NCBI GenBank assembly: GCA_021776115.1
Contig: JAJFGN010000028.1
Span: 1-64,000 of the forward strand
Direction of reading: 5' to 3'
DNA: 64,000 bases
Source of the DNA: Kiloniellaceae bacterium
Lineage (GTDB): Bacteria; Pseudomonadota; Alphaproteobacteria; Kiloniellales; J153
A program made the translations under genes and the position numbers. Under the pieces are notes generated by a model that was given only the letters and a program-made list of their open reading frames with translations, was not told the DNA's origin and searched no databases. Below, piece after piece: positions 30,530 to 59,314 of this stretch (the stretch's first letter is position 1; each line of letters opens with the position of its first letter).

Positions 30530-31228
30530 GTGGAAACTTGGGACGCCAGGTCGCTGGCCGGCATCGCCATGTTCGATGGCCTCGATGAGGTGGAACGGAA
30601 ACGCCTGGAGGAACGCTGTCAGTGGCGCCGTTTCGCCGCCGGCCAAACCATCCTGGAACGCGGCAGCGACAGCCGGGAGGTCCTGTTCATCGTCCAGGGC
30701 ACGGTCAATATCGTCAATTACTCACAGTCGGGGCGCGAGATCGCGTACGCGAACTTGGGCACCGGCGAATGCTTCGGCGAGTTGGCCGCGATTGACGGGC
30801 AGCCGCGCTCGGCCAGCGTGGTCGCGACCGAGCCGACTTTGGTCGCGGTCCTGGCGGCGGAACGCTTTCTGGAGCTGCTGAAGGAGCGCGCGGAGGTTAC
30901 CTTCCGCATGTTGACCCGCCTGGCCACCATGGTACGCAGCGGCGATGTGCGCATCATGGAGTTAAGCACCTTGGCCGCGACCCAGCGCGTTTACGCCGAG
31001 CTTTTGCGCATGGCCAAGCCCGACGCGGCGGGCACCGGATTGTACGTCATTCACCCCTTGCCGCCACTGCGCGAAGTCGCCAGCCGGGTCAGCACAACGC
31101 GCGAGACCGTGGCCCGCGCCATGAGCCATCTATATCCAAGCGGCATCATCCGGCGCAAAGGGCGCAGCCTCTACATCATGGACCGCACCAAGTTCGAAGA
31201 GCTGCTGGCTACCATGCGAAGCGAGTAG
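30530..31228 (+). CDS. Crp/Fnr-family transcription regulator
   Basis: 232 residues: a cyclic-nucleotide-binding fold at about 15-130 (YANLGTGECFGELAAIDGQPRS matches the cNMP phosphate-binding cassette, with Arg-Ser near its end as in cAMP binders), a dimerisation helix, and a winged helix with VASRVSTTRETVARAMSHLY. No FNR-type cysteine cluster is present. The start is GTG at 30530, after GGGGAG. It is divergent from phnD and might control it; it is also a candidate regulator for the TGTGA-N6-TCACA sites near 53167 and 55076. Confidence 0.9.
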   Translation: METWDARSLAGIAMFDGLDEVERKRLEERCQWRRFAAGQTILERGSDSREVLFIVQGTVNIVNYSQSGREIAYANLGTGECFGELAAIDGQPRSASVVATEPTLVAVLAAERFLELLKERAEVTFRMLTRLATMVRSGDVRIMELSTLAATQRVYAELLRMAKPDAAGTGLYVIHPLPPLREVASRVSTTRETVARAMSHLYPSGIIRRKGRSLYIMDRTKFEELLATMRSE

Positions 31229-50472: not shown

Positions 50473-50550
50473 AGACGCTCGGCGGCGTCTGATATTGAAT
50501 GTTTGATGGGGGAATGTCGTTTCCTAGATGGCGATGGAGGGCATCGAACC

Positions 50551-51228
50551 ATGAGAAACGCGATCCTTGCGATGGCGCTGTTGGCGACCGCGACGTTTGC
50601 CAATACCGCCGCGAACGCAACGATGGTGTTGGCTGAGGTCAATGGCGACCATAGTGGCTCCTCTACATCTTCAGGGTTTCTTGGGGTTATCCCGACTGAC
50701 GCGGTGTTCCTTTTTGGTTACGGGTTCAATTCCTTCTCGGGCGGGACCCAACCCCTGGGCCTGGATGCCGATTTTTTGTTGGGCGCCAACGTCCCGTGGT
50801 CGCTGGGCAGCACGGGCGCGTTCGACTTCGATAGCGCCAACAGCACGGATTTCGGTCAGATCGTTGCCCGCTTGACCAATGGGATCGATGAAGCGGATCT
50901 ATTCACGGGCGGCCTTGTTCGGCTTGCCAATACTCAAGCGGGAAACTTGCCGTTCACCGGAGGTGTTGGAAGTGGACCTGAGTTTGGGCGGCTGGGGCTG
51001 GGTTCGGATCTTCAGGGCGCGTCAATCGATTTTGTCAGATTGGCCGTGGATGAAGTGTCCTTCACGCTCACGGAGTTCGCGACCGTGGCTACGCTTGAGC
51101 GGCGATTAAGGGCGAGCTGGCAGATTTGGGGCACTGTTGCAGTCCCCGAACCGGCTAGCCTTACCCTCTTCGCCACGGGCTTGATCGGGTTAGGCCTCGT
51201 GGCGCGGCGGCGGCGAAGGAGAACTTGA
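50551..51228 (+). CDS. PEP-CTERM exported protein
   Basis: 225 residues: a signal peptide (about 1-22), a beta-rich body with GDHSGSSTSSGFLG and SLGSTGAFDFDSAN, and a classic PEP-CTERM tail, VPEPASLTLFATGLIGLGL, then an arginine cluster. Such proteins are processed by EpsH/exosortase and anchored or released with exopolysaccharide; no exosortase gene is in the window. GGAGGG precedes the ATG at 50551. An FNR-type box lies upstream. The body's function is unknown. Confidence 0.9.
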   Translation: MRNAILAMALLATATFANTAANATMVLAEVNGDHSGSSTSSGFLGVIPTDAVFLFGYGFNSFSGGTQPLGLDADFLLGANVPWSLGSTGAFDFDSANSTDFGQIVARLTNGIDEADLFTGGLVRLANTQAGNLPFTGGVGSGPEFGRLGLGSDLQGASIDFVRLAVDEVSFTLTEFATVATLERRLRASWQIWGTVAVPEPASLTLFATGLIGLGLVARRRRRRT

Positions 51229-52873: not shown

Positions 52874-52941
52874 ACCTCCCAGGATACGCTCACCGCGGCC
52901 GGCCAGCAAAATTTCTGGCCGCCGGCCGGTATGGGAAAGGC

Positions 52942-53073
52942 CTAGAAATCGGCGATGAGAGGTAAGGTCAGAATAAGGATGAAGGGAATGGCGAACAGGG
53001 CTCCAACCAGAAAGGCCATGCAATCGTAGATGAATAACGGGTCCCTTTTTTGACGGGTAATTGGCAGTGGCAT
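52942..53073 (-). CDS. 43-aa membrane micropeptide A
   Basis: A 132-nt gene too short for usual thresholds. The product has a polar, basic start (MPLPITRQKRDPLF), one membrane segment from about residue 18 to 40 (MAFLVGALFAIPFILIL) and the end ADF. GGAGGG precedes the ATG by 9 bases. The peptide at 54865-54996 has exactly the same length and 12 identical residues in an ungapped alignment: D17, A20, L22, G24, A28, P30, F31, L33, L35, P38 and F43, plus the initiator. Two CRP-type palindromes lie upstream. I know no family for it. Confidence 0.75.
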   Translation of the reverse strand: MPLPITRQKRDPLFIYDCMAFLVGALFAIPFILILTLPLIADF

Positions 53074-53166
53074 GATCTCGACCCTCCGCAAATAGGGCGC
53101 GCGGCCCCTCGTGTTCACGTCCCGATGTTCATGGGAAACACTTAATCAGGGATCGCTTCATGGAAA

Positions 53167-53214
53167 TGTGACCGCGATCACAGCGGCATCGGCCCAGGCG
53201 TGACCGGCGTCACA
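53167..53214 (-). promoter_or_regulatory. tandem CRP-type sites of micropeptide A
   Basis: TGTGACCGCGATCACA (53167-53182) and CGTGACCGGCGTCACA (53199-53214), centres 32 bp apart. The proximal centre lies 101 bp from the start codon. A block CCATGAACA (minus strand, 53134-53126) begins 32 nt downstream of the proximal site, around the expected transcription start if that site acts at -41.5; a TTAAGT -10-like hexamer (53145-53140) fits. The same geometry is found upstream of peptide B. Confidence 0.7.
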
Positions 53215-53275
53215 CATGCGATATTTTATGGGGATTCGGCGAAAAACGGGGCTTGGATACGAGCCTAGAGTTTGC

Positions 53276-53917
53276 TCAGGCTAAGACCCGCTCCGAGCTA
53301 ATTAGATCGACCCCAGCCTTTAACATCGCGCGCTTGGCGGCCGCTAGCGAACCGTCCAGGTCGATGGCGCGGCAGGCGTCCTCGATGACGACGGAGGTGA
53401 AGCCCTCGCGAGCCGCATCGACGGCCGAGAAGTGAACGCAGAAGTCGGTCGCCAGCCCGGCCAGGAACACGCGGTCGAAATCGCGCGTGCGCAAGTATCC
53501 GGTCAGGCCGGTCGGGGTTGTCCGGTCGTTTTCGAAAAAGGCCGAGTAGGAATCGATTTCGGGCCGAAAGCCTTTGCGGACGATTAACTCACCGCGTGCC
53601 GACTCCAGGTCCTTATGGAAGTCCGCGCCCGGCGTGCCCTGAACGCAATGGTCCGGCCACAAGGTTTGCGCCCCATAAGCAAGCTCGATCGATTCGAAAG
53701 GAGCGTGCCCTGAATGGCTGGACGCAAATGATTGGTGTCCGGGCGGGTGCCAGTCCTGGGTTAGCACGACATGCGCGAAGCGCGCGGCCAGACGGTTGAT
53801 GAGCGGGACAACCGCGTCGCCCTCCGGCACGGCCAAAGCGCCGCCGGGGCAGAAATCGTTTTGGACATCGATCAGGAGTAAAACGTCCGAGGTCTTGGGC
53901 ACAAAAGGTTCCGGCAT
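53276..53917 (-). CDS. pncA: nicotinamidase
   Basis: Hydrolyses nicotinamide to nicotinate for NAD salvage (213 residues). The catalytic triad Asp17 (IDVQNDF), Lys115 (VRKGF) and Cys160 (ATDFCVHFSA) is visible, as are metal ligands in TQDWHPPGH and WPDHC. It starts at ATG 53917 and sits 15 bp after the ygiD-type gene, so they form an operon. Confidence 0.93.
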   Translation of the reverse strand: MPEPFVPKTSDVLLLIDVQNDFCPGGALAVPEGDAVVPLINRLAARFAHVVLTQDWHPPGHQSFASSHSGHAPFESIELAYGAQTLWPDHCVQGTPGADFHKDLESARGELIVRKGFRPEIDSYSAFFENDRTTPTGLTGYLRTRDFDRVFLAGLATDFCVHFSAVDAAREGFTSVVIEDACRAIDLDGSLAAAKRAMLKAGVDLISSERVLA

Positions 53918-53932
53918 ATCGACTTCCGAGTG

Positions 53933-54733
53933 TCAGGCCGCCCCGAAGGCGAAGGCGGCCATGGAAAGGCTGCCATAGGAAAAGCCGCGATGCAAAATCC
54001 GGCCGGGAATGGAATCCGGGCTGCCCGGGTCCGCGCCCGCGCCCATGGCGACCGCAAGCGGCAGGTAGTGATCGTCGCTGGGATGGGCCCGTGAGGCCTG
54101 CGGCGCGCGGTGCATACAATCGGCGATGGCCGTACTGTCTCCGGCCTCGACCGTCTCGACCAACCAGTCTTCGAAAGCCTGGGCCCAATCTGGCGTGTCG
54201 GTTCCAGCGCGCCATTCCGCGAGGTTGTGAGTCGCGGTTCCGCTGCCCAGAACCAGCACGCCCTCGGCACGCAAGGGAGCGAGCGCCCGGCCCAGCGCCA
54301 GGTGCGTCGCGGCGTCGGCGCCGGCATGAAGCGCGAGCTGGGCAACCGGAATGTTGGCCTCTGGATACATGAGCATCAGGGGTTCCCATGCCCCATGATC
54401 GAGTCCGCGCACCGAATCCAGCGCGCAATCCATACCTGCGGCTTGAATCAATTCCGCCGCACGATTCGCGGCAGCGGGCGCCCCCGGCGCCGGATAACGC
54501 AACTCGTAAAGCGGTTTGGGAAAGCCGAAGAAATCGTGGATCGTCTCGGGGACCTCGGTCGTGCTCACGCACGGACCCGGCGCGACCCAATGAGCCGAAA
54601 CGCAAAGCACCGCCTTTGGCCGCGGCAGGTCTTGGCCAAGCCTCGCCAGAACCGCGGCGACGGGCAGGTTGTCGAGCACCATGCTCGGCGGCCCGTGGGA
54701 AATGAAAAGGCTGGGAAGCGCGGAACCGGACAT
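53933..54733 (-). CDS. YgiD/LigB-type extradiol dioxygenase
   Basis: 266 residues of the 4,5-DOPA-dioxygenase class. Metal ligand histidines are in FISHGPPS (His13) and SAHW (His48), with LDHGAWEPL and GTATHN later. It opens aromatic catechols. The ATG at 54733 is taken as the start; in-frame upstream codons to 54802 overlap a transcription terminator and are unlikely. There is little room for its own promoter (see 54773-54804). Confidence 0.88.
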   Translation of the reverse strand: MSGSALPSLFISHGPPSMVLDNLPVAAVLARLGQDLPRPKAVLCVSAHWVAPGPCVSTTEVPETIHDFFGFPKPLYELRYPAPGAPAAANRAAELIQAAGMDCALDSVRGLDHGAWEPLMLMYPEANIPVAQLALHAGADAATHLALGRALAPLRAEGVLVLGSGTATHNLAEWRAGTDTPDWAQAFEDWLVETVEAGDSTAIADCMHRAPQASRAHPSDDHYLPLAVAMGAGADPGSPDSIPGRILHRGFSYGSLSMAAFAFGAA

Positions 54734-54772
54734 TGCAGCCAAGATAACCGGCCCGCGAGCCCTGCACACACG

Positions 54773-54804
54773 AAAAAGCGTGGCCCCGTATGAGGGGACC
54801 ACGC
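54773..54804 (-). terminator. terminator after micropeptide B
   Basis: On the minus strand GCGTGGTCCCC and GGGGCCACGC form a stem around TCATAC, followed directly by TTTTT (54777-54773). It ends about 40 bp before the ygiD-type start codon. Confidence 0.75.
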
Positions 54805-54822
54805 AAGTTTGCCCGGGGGAAA

Positions 54823-54851
54823 CGGACCGGCGGCAAAGCGCCGCCGGTCCG
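54823..54851 (-). terminator. 12-bp GC stem-loop in the micropeptide B 3' region
   Basis: CGGACCGGCGGC (54823-54834) and GCCGCCGGTCCG (54840-54851) pair perfectly around a 5-nt loop. It sits just after the stop of peptide B. There is no T-run, so it may stabilise the RNA or be the first of two tandem stems ending the transcript. Confidence 0.6.
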
Positions 54852-54864
54852 CACGGGCGGAGAC

Positions 54865-54996
54865 CTAGAAGCCAGGAAAAAAAGGTGCCGCAAGGACCAG
54901 AGCGAAGGGCGTGGCGATTATGGTCCCAGCCAAAACCGCCAAGACGTCGAGCGTGACGATGGAGCTCTTGCGCAGAATGTTGGAGCGCTTTGTCAT
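54865..54996 (-). CDS. 43-aa membrane micropeptide B
   Basis: Paralogue of the gene at 52942-53073, same length, minus strand. The product begins MTKRSNILRKSSIV, is strongly basic, and is followed by one membrane segment (about 17-40: LAVLAGTIIATPFALVL) and the end FPGF. AAGGGG lies 8 bases before the ATG. Conserved positions form D-xx-A-x-L-x-G-xxx-A-x-P-F-x-L-x-L-xx-P and a final F. Tandem CRP-type sites and a terminator enclose it, so it has its own transcript. No family is known to me. Confidence 0.75.
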   Translation of the reverse strand: MTKRSNILRKSSIVTLDVLAVLAGTIIATPFALVLAAPFFPGF

Positions 54997-55075
54997 GGTT
55001 TTGCCCCTTAACGTTGCGGGGCGCATCGCCCCTGTGTTCATGGATAGGATTTGGCCACCAAACCGCTCACGAAGA

Positions 55076-55123
55076 AGTGACAGGCGTCACAGCGTCGCGG
55101 TCGGGCCTGTGACCGGTGTCACA
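55076..55123 (-). promoter_or_regulatory. tandem CRP-type sites of micropeptide B
   Basis: AGTGACAGGCGTCACA (55076-55091) and TGTGACCGGTGTCACA (55108-55123), centres 32 bp apart, exactly as upstream of peptide A. CCATGAACA (55043-55035, minus strand) again begins 32 nt downstream of the proximal site. The distal site is a perfect TGTGA-N6-TCACA. Confidence 0.75.
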
Positions 55124-57775: not shown

Positions 57776-59314
57776 TTAACCGCCTTCACCCGCGGCTTCG
57801 CGCCGCCGGGCCAAGGCTCGCGTGACGTAGGGCACCATCATCGGCACGACGAGAATAAGCGCCGCGACGATCAGGATACCGAAGGTCAGGGGCCGCTCCC
57901 AGAGAAACGACCAGGAATCGTCGTTGATGATGAGCGCGCGGCGCAAATTTTCTTCCATCATGCCGCCCAAAATGAAGCCGAGCAGCATGGGCGCCATGGG
58001 AAAGTCGAGCAGGCGCAGAGCAATGGCCGCCACCGCGAAGATCACCATGAGGTGGATATCGAAGGTGTTGAAGGAAACGAAGTAGACTCCGATCAAAGAG
58101 AAGAACAGGATCAGTGGGATCAGGATCGTTTGCGGCAGCGCCAGGATGCGCGCGATGTAGGGGATGAGCGGCAGATTCAGGATCAGCAGAATGACGTTGC
58201 CGATATACATCGACACGATTACCGACCAGAACACCTCCGGATTGTCGAGGAATAGGCGCGGACCGGGCTGTATGCCATAGGACAAGAGCGCGCCCAGCAT
58301 GATCGCCGTGGTCCCCGAGCCCGGGATACCCAGCGTCAGGAGCGGCACGAAGGATCCTGAACACGCGGCGTTGTTGGCGGTTTCCGGTGCGGCCAGGCCG
58401 CGAATCGACCCTTTTCCGAATTGGACCGCCTTCTTCGGCCCGGCCAGCCGCTGCTCCATGCCATAGGCCATAAAGCTGGCAATCGTTGCCCCCGCGCCCG
58501 GCAGCACACCGATGAAGAAGCCGAGGACCGAAGAGCGGCCGATCACCGGTACCATTTCCTTCACTTCCGCACGCGAAAGCTTCATCGACCCGAGGTTCGC
58601 CTGCGCGTCCTTTTCGCGGGCGATATCCGCTTGGCTCTTGGGCTTGAGGACCGCCATCAGGGCCTCGGACAAGGCGAAGGTCGCCATCGCAAGAAGCAGG
58701 AAAGAGACACCGTCGATCAGGTCCAAGATACCCAAGGTGAAACGCTGCACGCCTTGCGTCTGATCGGTCCCGACGGTCGAGATCATCAGGCCCAGAACCG
58801 CCATCATCAGCGCCTTGACCACGTTGCCCTTGCCCGCGAAGGCGGCGACCGCGGTCAAACCCAAGACCATCAAGGCGAAATAGTCGGTCGATCGGAACGA
58901 CAGCGATACGGCGGCGAGCGACGGCGCGGCGATAAGCAGAAAAATTGCCGCGATGGTGCCGCCGGAAAAGGATGAATAGGCCGCGATGGCCAAGGCCTTG
59001 CCGGCTTGGCCCTGCCGCGCCATGGGATAGCCGTCGAAAGCGGTGGCGACCGTCCCCGCCACGCCGGGCGCGTTGATCAGGATCGAGGAGGTCGAACCGC
59101 CGAATATCGCCCCATAATAAACGCCCGCCATCAATATCATGCCCGAAGCCGGATCGAAGCCGTAAGTGATCGGGATCATCAAAGCGATGGCAGAGATCGG
59201 CCCCAGGCCCGGCAGCATGCCGATAAAGGTGCCGACGAAACAACCGGCCACGACCATCAAGAGATTGATCGGCGTGATCACGGTCGCGAGACCTGCGAGG
59301 ATTCCCTCCAGCAT
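57776..59314 (-). CDS. tctA: tripartite tricarboxylate transporter, large subunit
   Basis: 512 residues with about eleven or twelve spans. The TctA family signature is seen in GMLPGLGPISAIALMIPITYG near the N-terminus and GVLPGAGATIASFMAYG in the middle, and the later GIPGSGTTAIMLGALL. It forms the channel that takes up carboxylates with the periplasmic TctC. Order on the minus strand is tctC, tctB, tctA, as is usual. Confidence 0.93.
   Translation of the reverse strand: MLEGILAGLATVITPINLLMVVAGCFVGTFIGMLPGLGPISAIALMIPITYGFDPASGMILMAGVYYGAIFGGSTSSILINAPGVAGTVATAFDGYPMARQGQAGKALAIAAYSSFSGGTIAAIFLLIAAPSLAAVSLSFRSTDYFALMVLGLTAVAAFAGKGNVVKALMMAVLGLMISTVGTDQTQGVQRFTLGILDLIDGVSFLLLAMATFALSEALMAVLKPKSQADIAREKDAQANLGSMKLSRAEVKEMVPVIGRSSVLGFFIGVLPGAGATIASFMAYGMEQRLAGPKKAVQFGKGSIRGLAAPETANNAACSGSFVPLLTLGIPGSGTTAIMLGALLSYGIQPGPRLFLDNPEVFWSVIVSMYIGNVILLILNLPLIPYIARILALPQTILIPLILFFSLIGVYFVSFNTFDIHLMVIFAVAAIALRLLDFPMAPMLLGFILGGMMEENLRRALIINDDSWSFLWERPLTFGILIVAALILVVPMMVPYVTRALARRREAAGEGG

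Follow-up and report, generated by a model that had tools for sequence, protein, structure and literature searches.

Why would an alphaproteobacterial genome keep two genes for products of only 43 residues on either side of a nicotinamidase gene, each behind regulatory boxes of its own? The question is raised by a 64,000-nucleotide (nt) stretch of DNA from a Kiloniellaceae bacterium (GenBank assembly GCA_021776115.1, contig JAJFGN010000028.1), hereafter the window, in which peptide gene A (52942..53073, minus strand; 43 aa, MPLPITRQKRDPLFIYDCMAFLVGALFAIPFILILTLPLIADF) and peptide gene B (54865..54996, minus strand; 43 aa, MTKRSNILRKSSIVTLDVLAVLAGTIIATPFALVLAAPFFPGF) each take up 132 nt, stop included. 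The answer that we consider moderately probable is that A and B represent a new family of single-pass inner-membrane micropeptides, which would be activated by a CRP-type regulator and would tune a larger membrane protein.

The initial annotation had described two minus-strand genes of 132 nt with good ribosome sites and 12 identities in 43 residues, all of which our reading and alignment bore out. A Shine-Dalgarno sequence can be read from the DNA ahead of each gene, GGAGGG for A (53082..53087, minus strand) and AAGGGG for B (55004..55009, minus strand), and the ungapped alignment of the products keeps M1, D17, A20, L22, G24, A28, P30, F31, L33, L35, P38 and F43. Both peptides have a basic start and one hydrophobic segment, with 19-residue hydropathy maxima of 2.63 and 2.38 for the two. 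Compared directly, the two are only weakly similar (E 0.06 and 0.14, in searches of one genome); we take them as paralogues through intermediate sequences, because both match the same peptide in the genome G004 (A at 1.4e-5, B at 2.2e-8) and a query with B matches the A peptide of G003 at 9.5e-5. The two frames can also be read 15 codons further upstream, to 58 aa. This longer start was rejected and the 43-aa starts were preferred because the 58-aa frame is not conserved, the open frame of A in G001 having only 44 codons.

Within the genus the comparison covered four genomes, that of the window (G000) and G001, G002 and G003, which supply eight A and B sequences. Both genes are found in all four, every copy is exactly 132 nt long and the frames carry no insertions or deletions. 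Loss of the frames in relatives had been named in advance as the observation that would speak against the genes; we found the frames present and unbroken in relatives. Codon models gave omega, the ratio of non-synonymous to synonymous substitution rates (dN/dS), as 0.31 for A and 0.26 for B, and omega = 1 was rejected for both when compared at the best of six fixed kappa values (twice the log-likelihood difference 17.3 and 25.9; p 3e-5 and 4e-7). Both are open frames of at most 50 aa under protein-level selection, and the proposal that they are real selected micropeptides is supported by this sequence comparison. It is very improbable that they are chance open frames with no protein function. 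They are very short, and the DNA around them has regulatory sites of its own, both of which would suit such frames; the dN/dS values, the constant length in the eight genus sequences and the occurrence of relatives in several families speak against it. The order A-pncA-B is also syntenic in the four genomes, so that the earlier description of the peptides as flanking ygiD-pncA holds for pncA in four of four, whereas the ygiD-like gene lies between A and B only in G000 and G002.

A pair of CRP-type boxes spaced 32 bp apart lies upstream of A, and an equally spaced pair upstream of B. For A, a pattern match in class II position, TGTGATCGCGGTCACA (53167..53182, minus strand), forms the proximal box, a distal box TGTGACGCCGGTCACG (53199..53214, minus strand) lies 32 bp further upstream, and a −10-like hexamer TTAAGT (53140..53145, minus strand) follows the proximal box after 22 nt. 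For B the corresponding elements are the proximal pattern match TGTGACGCCTGTCACT (55076..55091, minus strand), the distal box TGTGACACCGGTCACA (55108..55123, minus strand), again 32 bp upstream, and the hexamer CCAAAT (four of six matches; 55049..55054, minus strand), again 22 nt after the proximal box. The separate pairs agree with the earlier view that each gene sits in a regulated unit of its own. In the 4.3-Mb genome the pattern TGTGAC-N4-GTCACA with at most one mismatch occurs nine times, four of them at A and B, and its reversed control gives two sites. A tandem pattern (GTGAY-N4-RTCAC, 17-20 nt, GTGAY-N4-RTCAC) has 12 sites in 61 genomes and none when reversed. A and B in the four genomes of the genus account for eight, another locus present in G000, G001 and G003 for three, and the stretch after crp in G033 for the last. 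As far as DNA patterns can tell, a Crp-type signal at A and B is strongly supported.

The same signal accompanies the peptide family outside the genus. A box matching TGTGA-N6-TCACA with up to two mismatches lies within 170 nt before the start at 22 of 23 peptide loci, although boxes with two mismatches would be individually weak (the proximal box of B in G002, the boxes of G033 and of G239, and the proximal boxes of the three copies in G361). In class II geometry the centre of the box lies near −41.5. We measured offsets from where the proximal box ends and accepted hexamers with at least four of six matches to TTAAAT or TATAAT. A −10-like hexamer stood at an offset of 22 in 11 of 22 loci, seven of them among the eight of the genus, whereas the remaining offsets between 15 and 34 each gave four of 22 or fewer. 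An offset of 22 is the class II position, with the box centred at about −41.5 from the predicted start site. Because of this position, we predict activation rather than repression of the genes, a reading taken from the placement of the box and nothing else. The three peptide copies of G361 (C74 = L084, C208 = L085) each have two overlapping boxes shifted by 14 bp (for example TGTGATCGCTGTCATATGACCGGTGTCACT), an arrangement that differs from the 32-bp tandem of the genus.

How far does the family extend? Among 61 genomes of the order, a profile search picked up relatives in 11, with two further weak matches (G045, G049) that were counted only in the second Fisher test given below. In a draw of 385 genomes from the class, 10 matched; G000 and three further carriers, G064, G361 and G239, were counted, and G163, G177, G280, G336, G362 and G365 were set aside as matches inside frames of 216 to 641 codons, as were the matches G064:C252 and G239:C1. 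The counted copy in G239 lies at the tail of a longer frame, open over 210 codons, and its start was therefore chosen by us. One more genome of G361's order, G441, carries three copies, which were left out of the box and promoter counts. A draw of 398 genomes from the phylum gave eight matches including the genome of the window; the other seven were not counted as relatives because they are weak (best 6.5e-5) and two read through stop codons, and their loci were not read. A scan of named genomes gave seven loci, all metagenome-assembled and labelled Proteobacteria (three), Alphaproteobacteria (two) and Kiloniellaceae (two). Extra matches of A (G018, G045 and a further place in G001; E 0.07-0.09) and of B (G021, G049 and a further place in G001; E 0.02-0.09) were likewise left uncounted. 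Relatives thus counted occur in other families, with one to three paralogues per carrier genome.

These relatives have a common anatomy. An Asp stands 13 residues ahead of the first Pro of a Pro-Phe motif in 18 of 22 members, a second Pro follows exactly eight residues past the first in all 22, and five residues come after it in 19; the N-terminus is variable, with a positive net charge before the Asp position in 20 of 22 and charges of 0 and −2 in the other two. The earlier statement that the peptides drift without change of length is correct for A and B within the genus but not elsewhere, where total length runs from 38 to 46 aa while the stretch from Asp to the end stays nearly fixed at about 27 residues. 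The peptides fit the pattern of one hydrophobic helix with a positive-inside N-terminus, and would insert into the membrane. An AlphaFold2 model of B is a single helix over residues 4-39 (mean predicted local distance difference test score, pLDDT, 86.6; predicted template modelling score, pTM, 0.51).

The initial annotation had recognised no family, and our searches found none either. Scans of Pfam, NCBIfam and PHROGs with single peptides and with sets of 22 to 25 members gave chance-level matches only, the PDB gave only matches at E 5.6 or worse, B as the sole query had no match at E 0.1 in plasmid and phage collections, and a literature search returned no report of such a peptide family, although most subscription papers lay outside its coverage and the result is not proof of absence. 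So far, and to the extent that these searches reach, the family appears to be new but of a known kind.

The position of the prolines raises a different picture, in which the peptide would be a monotopic (reentrant) hairpin broken at Pro30, like the membrane anchor of a small phosphoglycosyl transferase, and might imitate or block that anchor. Hidden Markov model (HMM) matches lead to the N-terminal helix of a protein in one genus (E 1.7e-4 to 3e-3, three genomes), which we take to be transferase-like. The likeness to the PglC reentrant helix lies in a basic start, an Asp and 13 residues from it to a Pro within a hydrophobic helix. The same Asp-13-Pro spacing is present in the matched protein and hhalign gave a probability of 92%, a score that is biased because the profile compared was chosen from the matches. 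In the peptides, moreover, the Pro lies inside a nearly uncharged stretch of about 30 residues with a basic dyad ahead of it, and one source describes reentrant topology as favoured by a basic dyad together with a Pro that follows a Ser or a branched-chain residue (PMC6133551). Against this, none of 22 members matched the Pfam transferase family (Bac_transf) at E up to 10 with the HMMER filters on, which drop most matches above 0.1 and so limit this negative, and PDB matches were at chance level. The basic dyad is about 20 residues from the Pro as opposed to 16-17 in PglC; unlike PglC, A and B have no catalytic domain, carry a second conserved Pro eight residues on and are modelled by AlphaFold2 as an unbroken helix. 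We therefore regard the reentrant hairpin as decidedly unlikely and keep to a single-pass micropeptide.

Which regulator would bind the boxes? The candidate is a crp-like gene of the window (30530..31228, plus strand; cNMP_binding and HTH_Crp_2 domains) whose orthologue lies upstream of a peptide gene in five related genomes. In G007, G020, G026 and G029 the distance from the end of crp to the start of the peptide gene is 136-162 nt, and in G036 it is about 340 nt. Among the solved structures related to this regulator by sequence are those of Vfr and E. coli-type CAP (E 2e-17 to 1e-15). The recognition helix RETVAR is found at 16 of 18 crp orthologue loci (it is RETAAR in G036 and cut off in G439) and the pocket motif GEL...PRS at all 18; we take RETVAR to fit the TGTGA half-site and GEL...PRS to fit a cyclic-nucleotide pocket, by comparison with E. 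coli CRP, and the ligand is presumably cyclic AMP (cAMP). With a threshold of 56% identity or more, set after the list had been seen, a crp orthologue is present in 19 of the 61 genomes of the order, partial in two of them (G005, G439). The peptide was found in 11 of these 19 genomes and in none of the other 42 (two of 42 with weak matches), a co-occurrence with a Fisher p of 2e-7, or 1e-5 with the weak matches, when relatedness is ignored. The genome of the window also encodes a second Crp paralogue (C62:21320-21979, L148), which is 39% identical and reads STHREAVTR in its recognition helix. A gene with a Guanylate_cyc domain (PF00211, adenylate/guanylate cyclase, E 1e-10) is oriented divergently from it, and the two are likely a cyclic-nucleotide signalling pair.

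Taken together, we propose the following course for the CRP-activated micropeptides. The 30530-31228 regulator, charged with its ligand (presumably cAMP), would bind the proximal box centred at about −41.5, assisted by the second box 32 bp upstream, and would switch on a short transcript of about 200 nt. Translation would yield a peptide whose N-terminus is basic and cytoplasmic and whose single long hydrophobic helix contains the conserved Asp, the Pro-Phe and the second Pro. The peptide might then pack against a larger inner-membrane protein of transporter, oxidase or cyclase type and adjust its activity or stability under starvation-like conditions that raise the signal. Modulation of a membrane complex had already been suggested from the window, and it stays an inference because only crp (five genomes) and pncA recur as neighbours at peptide loci. 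Judged by homology to window genes and by frame starts read by eye (G239 by eye only), the loci without crp (G361, G033, G239, G064, G036b, G004b) had no shared neighbour.

Several observations weigh against this proposal. We saw no target gene that travels with the peptide. In the genome of the window crp lies 21.7 kb from peptide A and is not adjacent, no peptide was detected in eight of the 19 genomes with a crp orthologue, and the C62 paralogue could bind the same boxes. One locus, G004b, has a peptide without a box, and in G008 (L099) a box is kept downstream of crp and the next 130 nt or so hold no peptide frame. The hexamer TTAAAT used in the offset count was picked after the sequences had been seen. 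Finally, the hydrophobic, nearly uncharged stretch, at some 30 residues, is longer than one would expect of a simple single-pass helix.

The G008 locus is not the only one with this promoter type but without the peptide. Its stretch looks non-coding, and a hairpin with a T-rich tail follows before pncA. In G033 (L108) two boxes and a −10 lie downstream of crp with no family peptide in a stretch that again looks non-coding, its peptide being elsewhere. In G438 (L103, ~2354-2509, reversed strand) the frame that comes after crp and a perfect box is small and hydrophobic but unrelated, HTALFAALIWFAASLACLVALWGMNRWDD..., and may have replaced the peptide without being homologous to it. The third locus with tandem boxes in the genus (G000 C1:75554-75603, L062, L137, L149; G001 C46:44329, L147; G003 C85:98288, L136) has a −10 of CTAAAT or CTAAGT some 21 nt past the box. 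Its 5' stem-loop differs on both sides of the stem between G000 and G003, and in G001 the loop is kept with a shorter stem. The gene upstream of this locus belongs to the Pmp3 family (PF01679, E 4e-19 in the genome of the window), no membrane frame was seen downstream of the locus, and we consider it a putative CRP-dependent small RNA.

Because of such loci, the main rival is still a dual-function RNA, in which base pairing would be the main or an additional activity of the CRP-dependent short transcript and the peptide one of its two outputs, as in VcdRP and AzuCR. The third tandem locus and the stretches after crp in G033 and G008 would fit it, and short GC hairpins are present in the peptide leaders. 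A leader hairpin looked attractive by eye as a conserved RNA element and was rejected, as it proved no stronger than dinucleotide shuffles (z −1.7 to +1.9, one 18-nt leader outside this range being too short to judge). Rfam had no match at gathering score at A or B, and the peptide sequence itself is under purifying selection, both of which count against an RNA acting by pairing. We hold this rival to be rather unlikely.

CRP-controlled dual-function RNAs are known, however, and one report describes two (PMC8672173). In that account AzuC of Escherichia coli, from AzuCR, binds GlpD and raises its activity and AzuCR is repressed by CRP, while VcdP of Vibrio cholerae, from VcdRP, is a tiny protein that raises citrate synthase activity and whose transcript is repressed by CRP (PMC8672173). 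Compared by these descriptions only, A and B resemble AzuC as small proteins from short CRP-controlled transcripts and VcdP in the same coupling of such a transcript to a tiny protein. AzuCR is repressed by CRP where the geometry at A and B predicts activation, and A and B, unlike AzuC, are paralogues with tandem boxes and with crp linkage in relatives. VcdP, for its part, has 29 aa and another target, and its transcript is CRP-repressed and a proven base-pairing RNA. A different kind of precedent comes from CydX, KdpF, AcrZ and similar short single-helix peptides, which adjust a large membrane protein and are in some cases encoded in the operon of their partner. The likeness is only in how such peptides work; A and B have no partner operon in sight and no Pfam or NCBIfam match.

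Small hydrophobic peptides could also be harmful by nature. As type I toxin-like peptides, A and B would damage the membrane when overproduced and slow growth under starvation, and their size, hydrophobicity, number (one to three paralogues per genome) and own promoters with clear regulatory boxes would suit such a role. The nearly fixed Asp and proline positions across families do not, nor do the pncA synteny in the genus and control by an activator of metabolic type, and we judge a toxin unlikely. More tentatively than the tuning role itself, we entertain an older origin, in which a CRP-family regulator and a micropeptide encoded just downstream would form one circuit. The peptide would serve that regulator alone as its output at the membrane and might act as a feedback brake on carbon and energy uptake or on a cyclase bound to the membrane, and in this genus it would have been duplicated and separated from crp with the double-box promoter kept.

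What the micropeptides add is a separate alphaproteobacterial family, missing from the libraries searched, whose promoter is sharply defined and predicts activation and which is linked to crp in relatives. They also show that a common promoter anatomy can lend support to genes whose shortness puts them beyond annotation libraries. The role of CRP in these bacteria could be approached through few predicted targets, namely the two peptides, the putative small RNA and prkA. The last (Pfam AAA_PrkA, E 8e-177) has a CRP-type box with CTAAAT at an offset of 22 lying 160 nt upstream in the genome of the window (C1:127544-127559, L066), and is likely a further target of the same regulator. Another CRP-type box (C66:67947-67962, L065, minus strand) has CTATATT at about class II distance and then a 58-aa frame without a Pfam match.

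Of the features around the peptide genes, a strong terminator-like hairpin lies shortly after the stop of B (54822..54852, minus strand) and recurs in all four B orthologues, where stem sequences differ and the shape is kept (z −3.2 to −4.4 against mononucleotide shuffles); B therefore probably forms its own transcript. The evidence is weaker for A, where the hairpin just 3' of the gene (52900..52921, minus strand) is a possible terminator with a z of −1.6, and of +0.7 in G001. Two neighbours lie between A and B: pncA (53276..53917, minus strand), above the NCBIfam nicotinamidase cut-off (212 vs 174 bits), and a ygiD-like dioxygenase (53933..54733, minus strand), under the cut-off for NCBIfam 4,5-DOPA dioxygenase YgiD (207 vs 233 bits) and found at this place in neither G001 nor G003. 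Elsewhere in the window, positions 50503-51228 (plus strand) encode a protein with a C-terminal tail, VPEPASLTLFATGLIGLGLVARRRRRRT, that we take to be PEP-CTERM-like, and positions 58137-58264 (plus strand) match the Rfam family Cis8_sRNA (RF02646) with 81 bits, above its gathering score.

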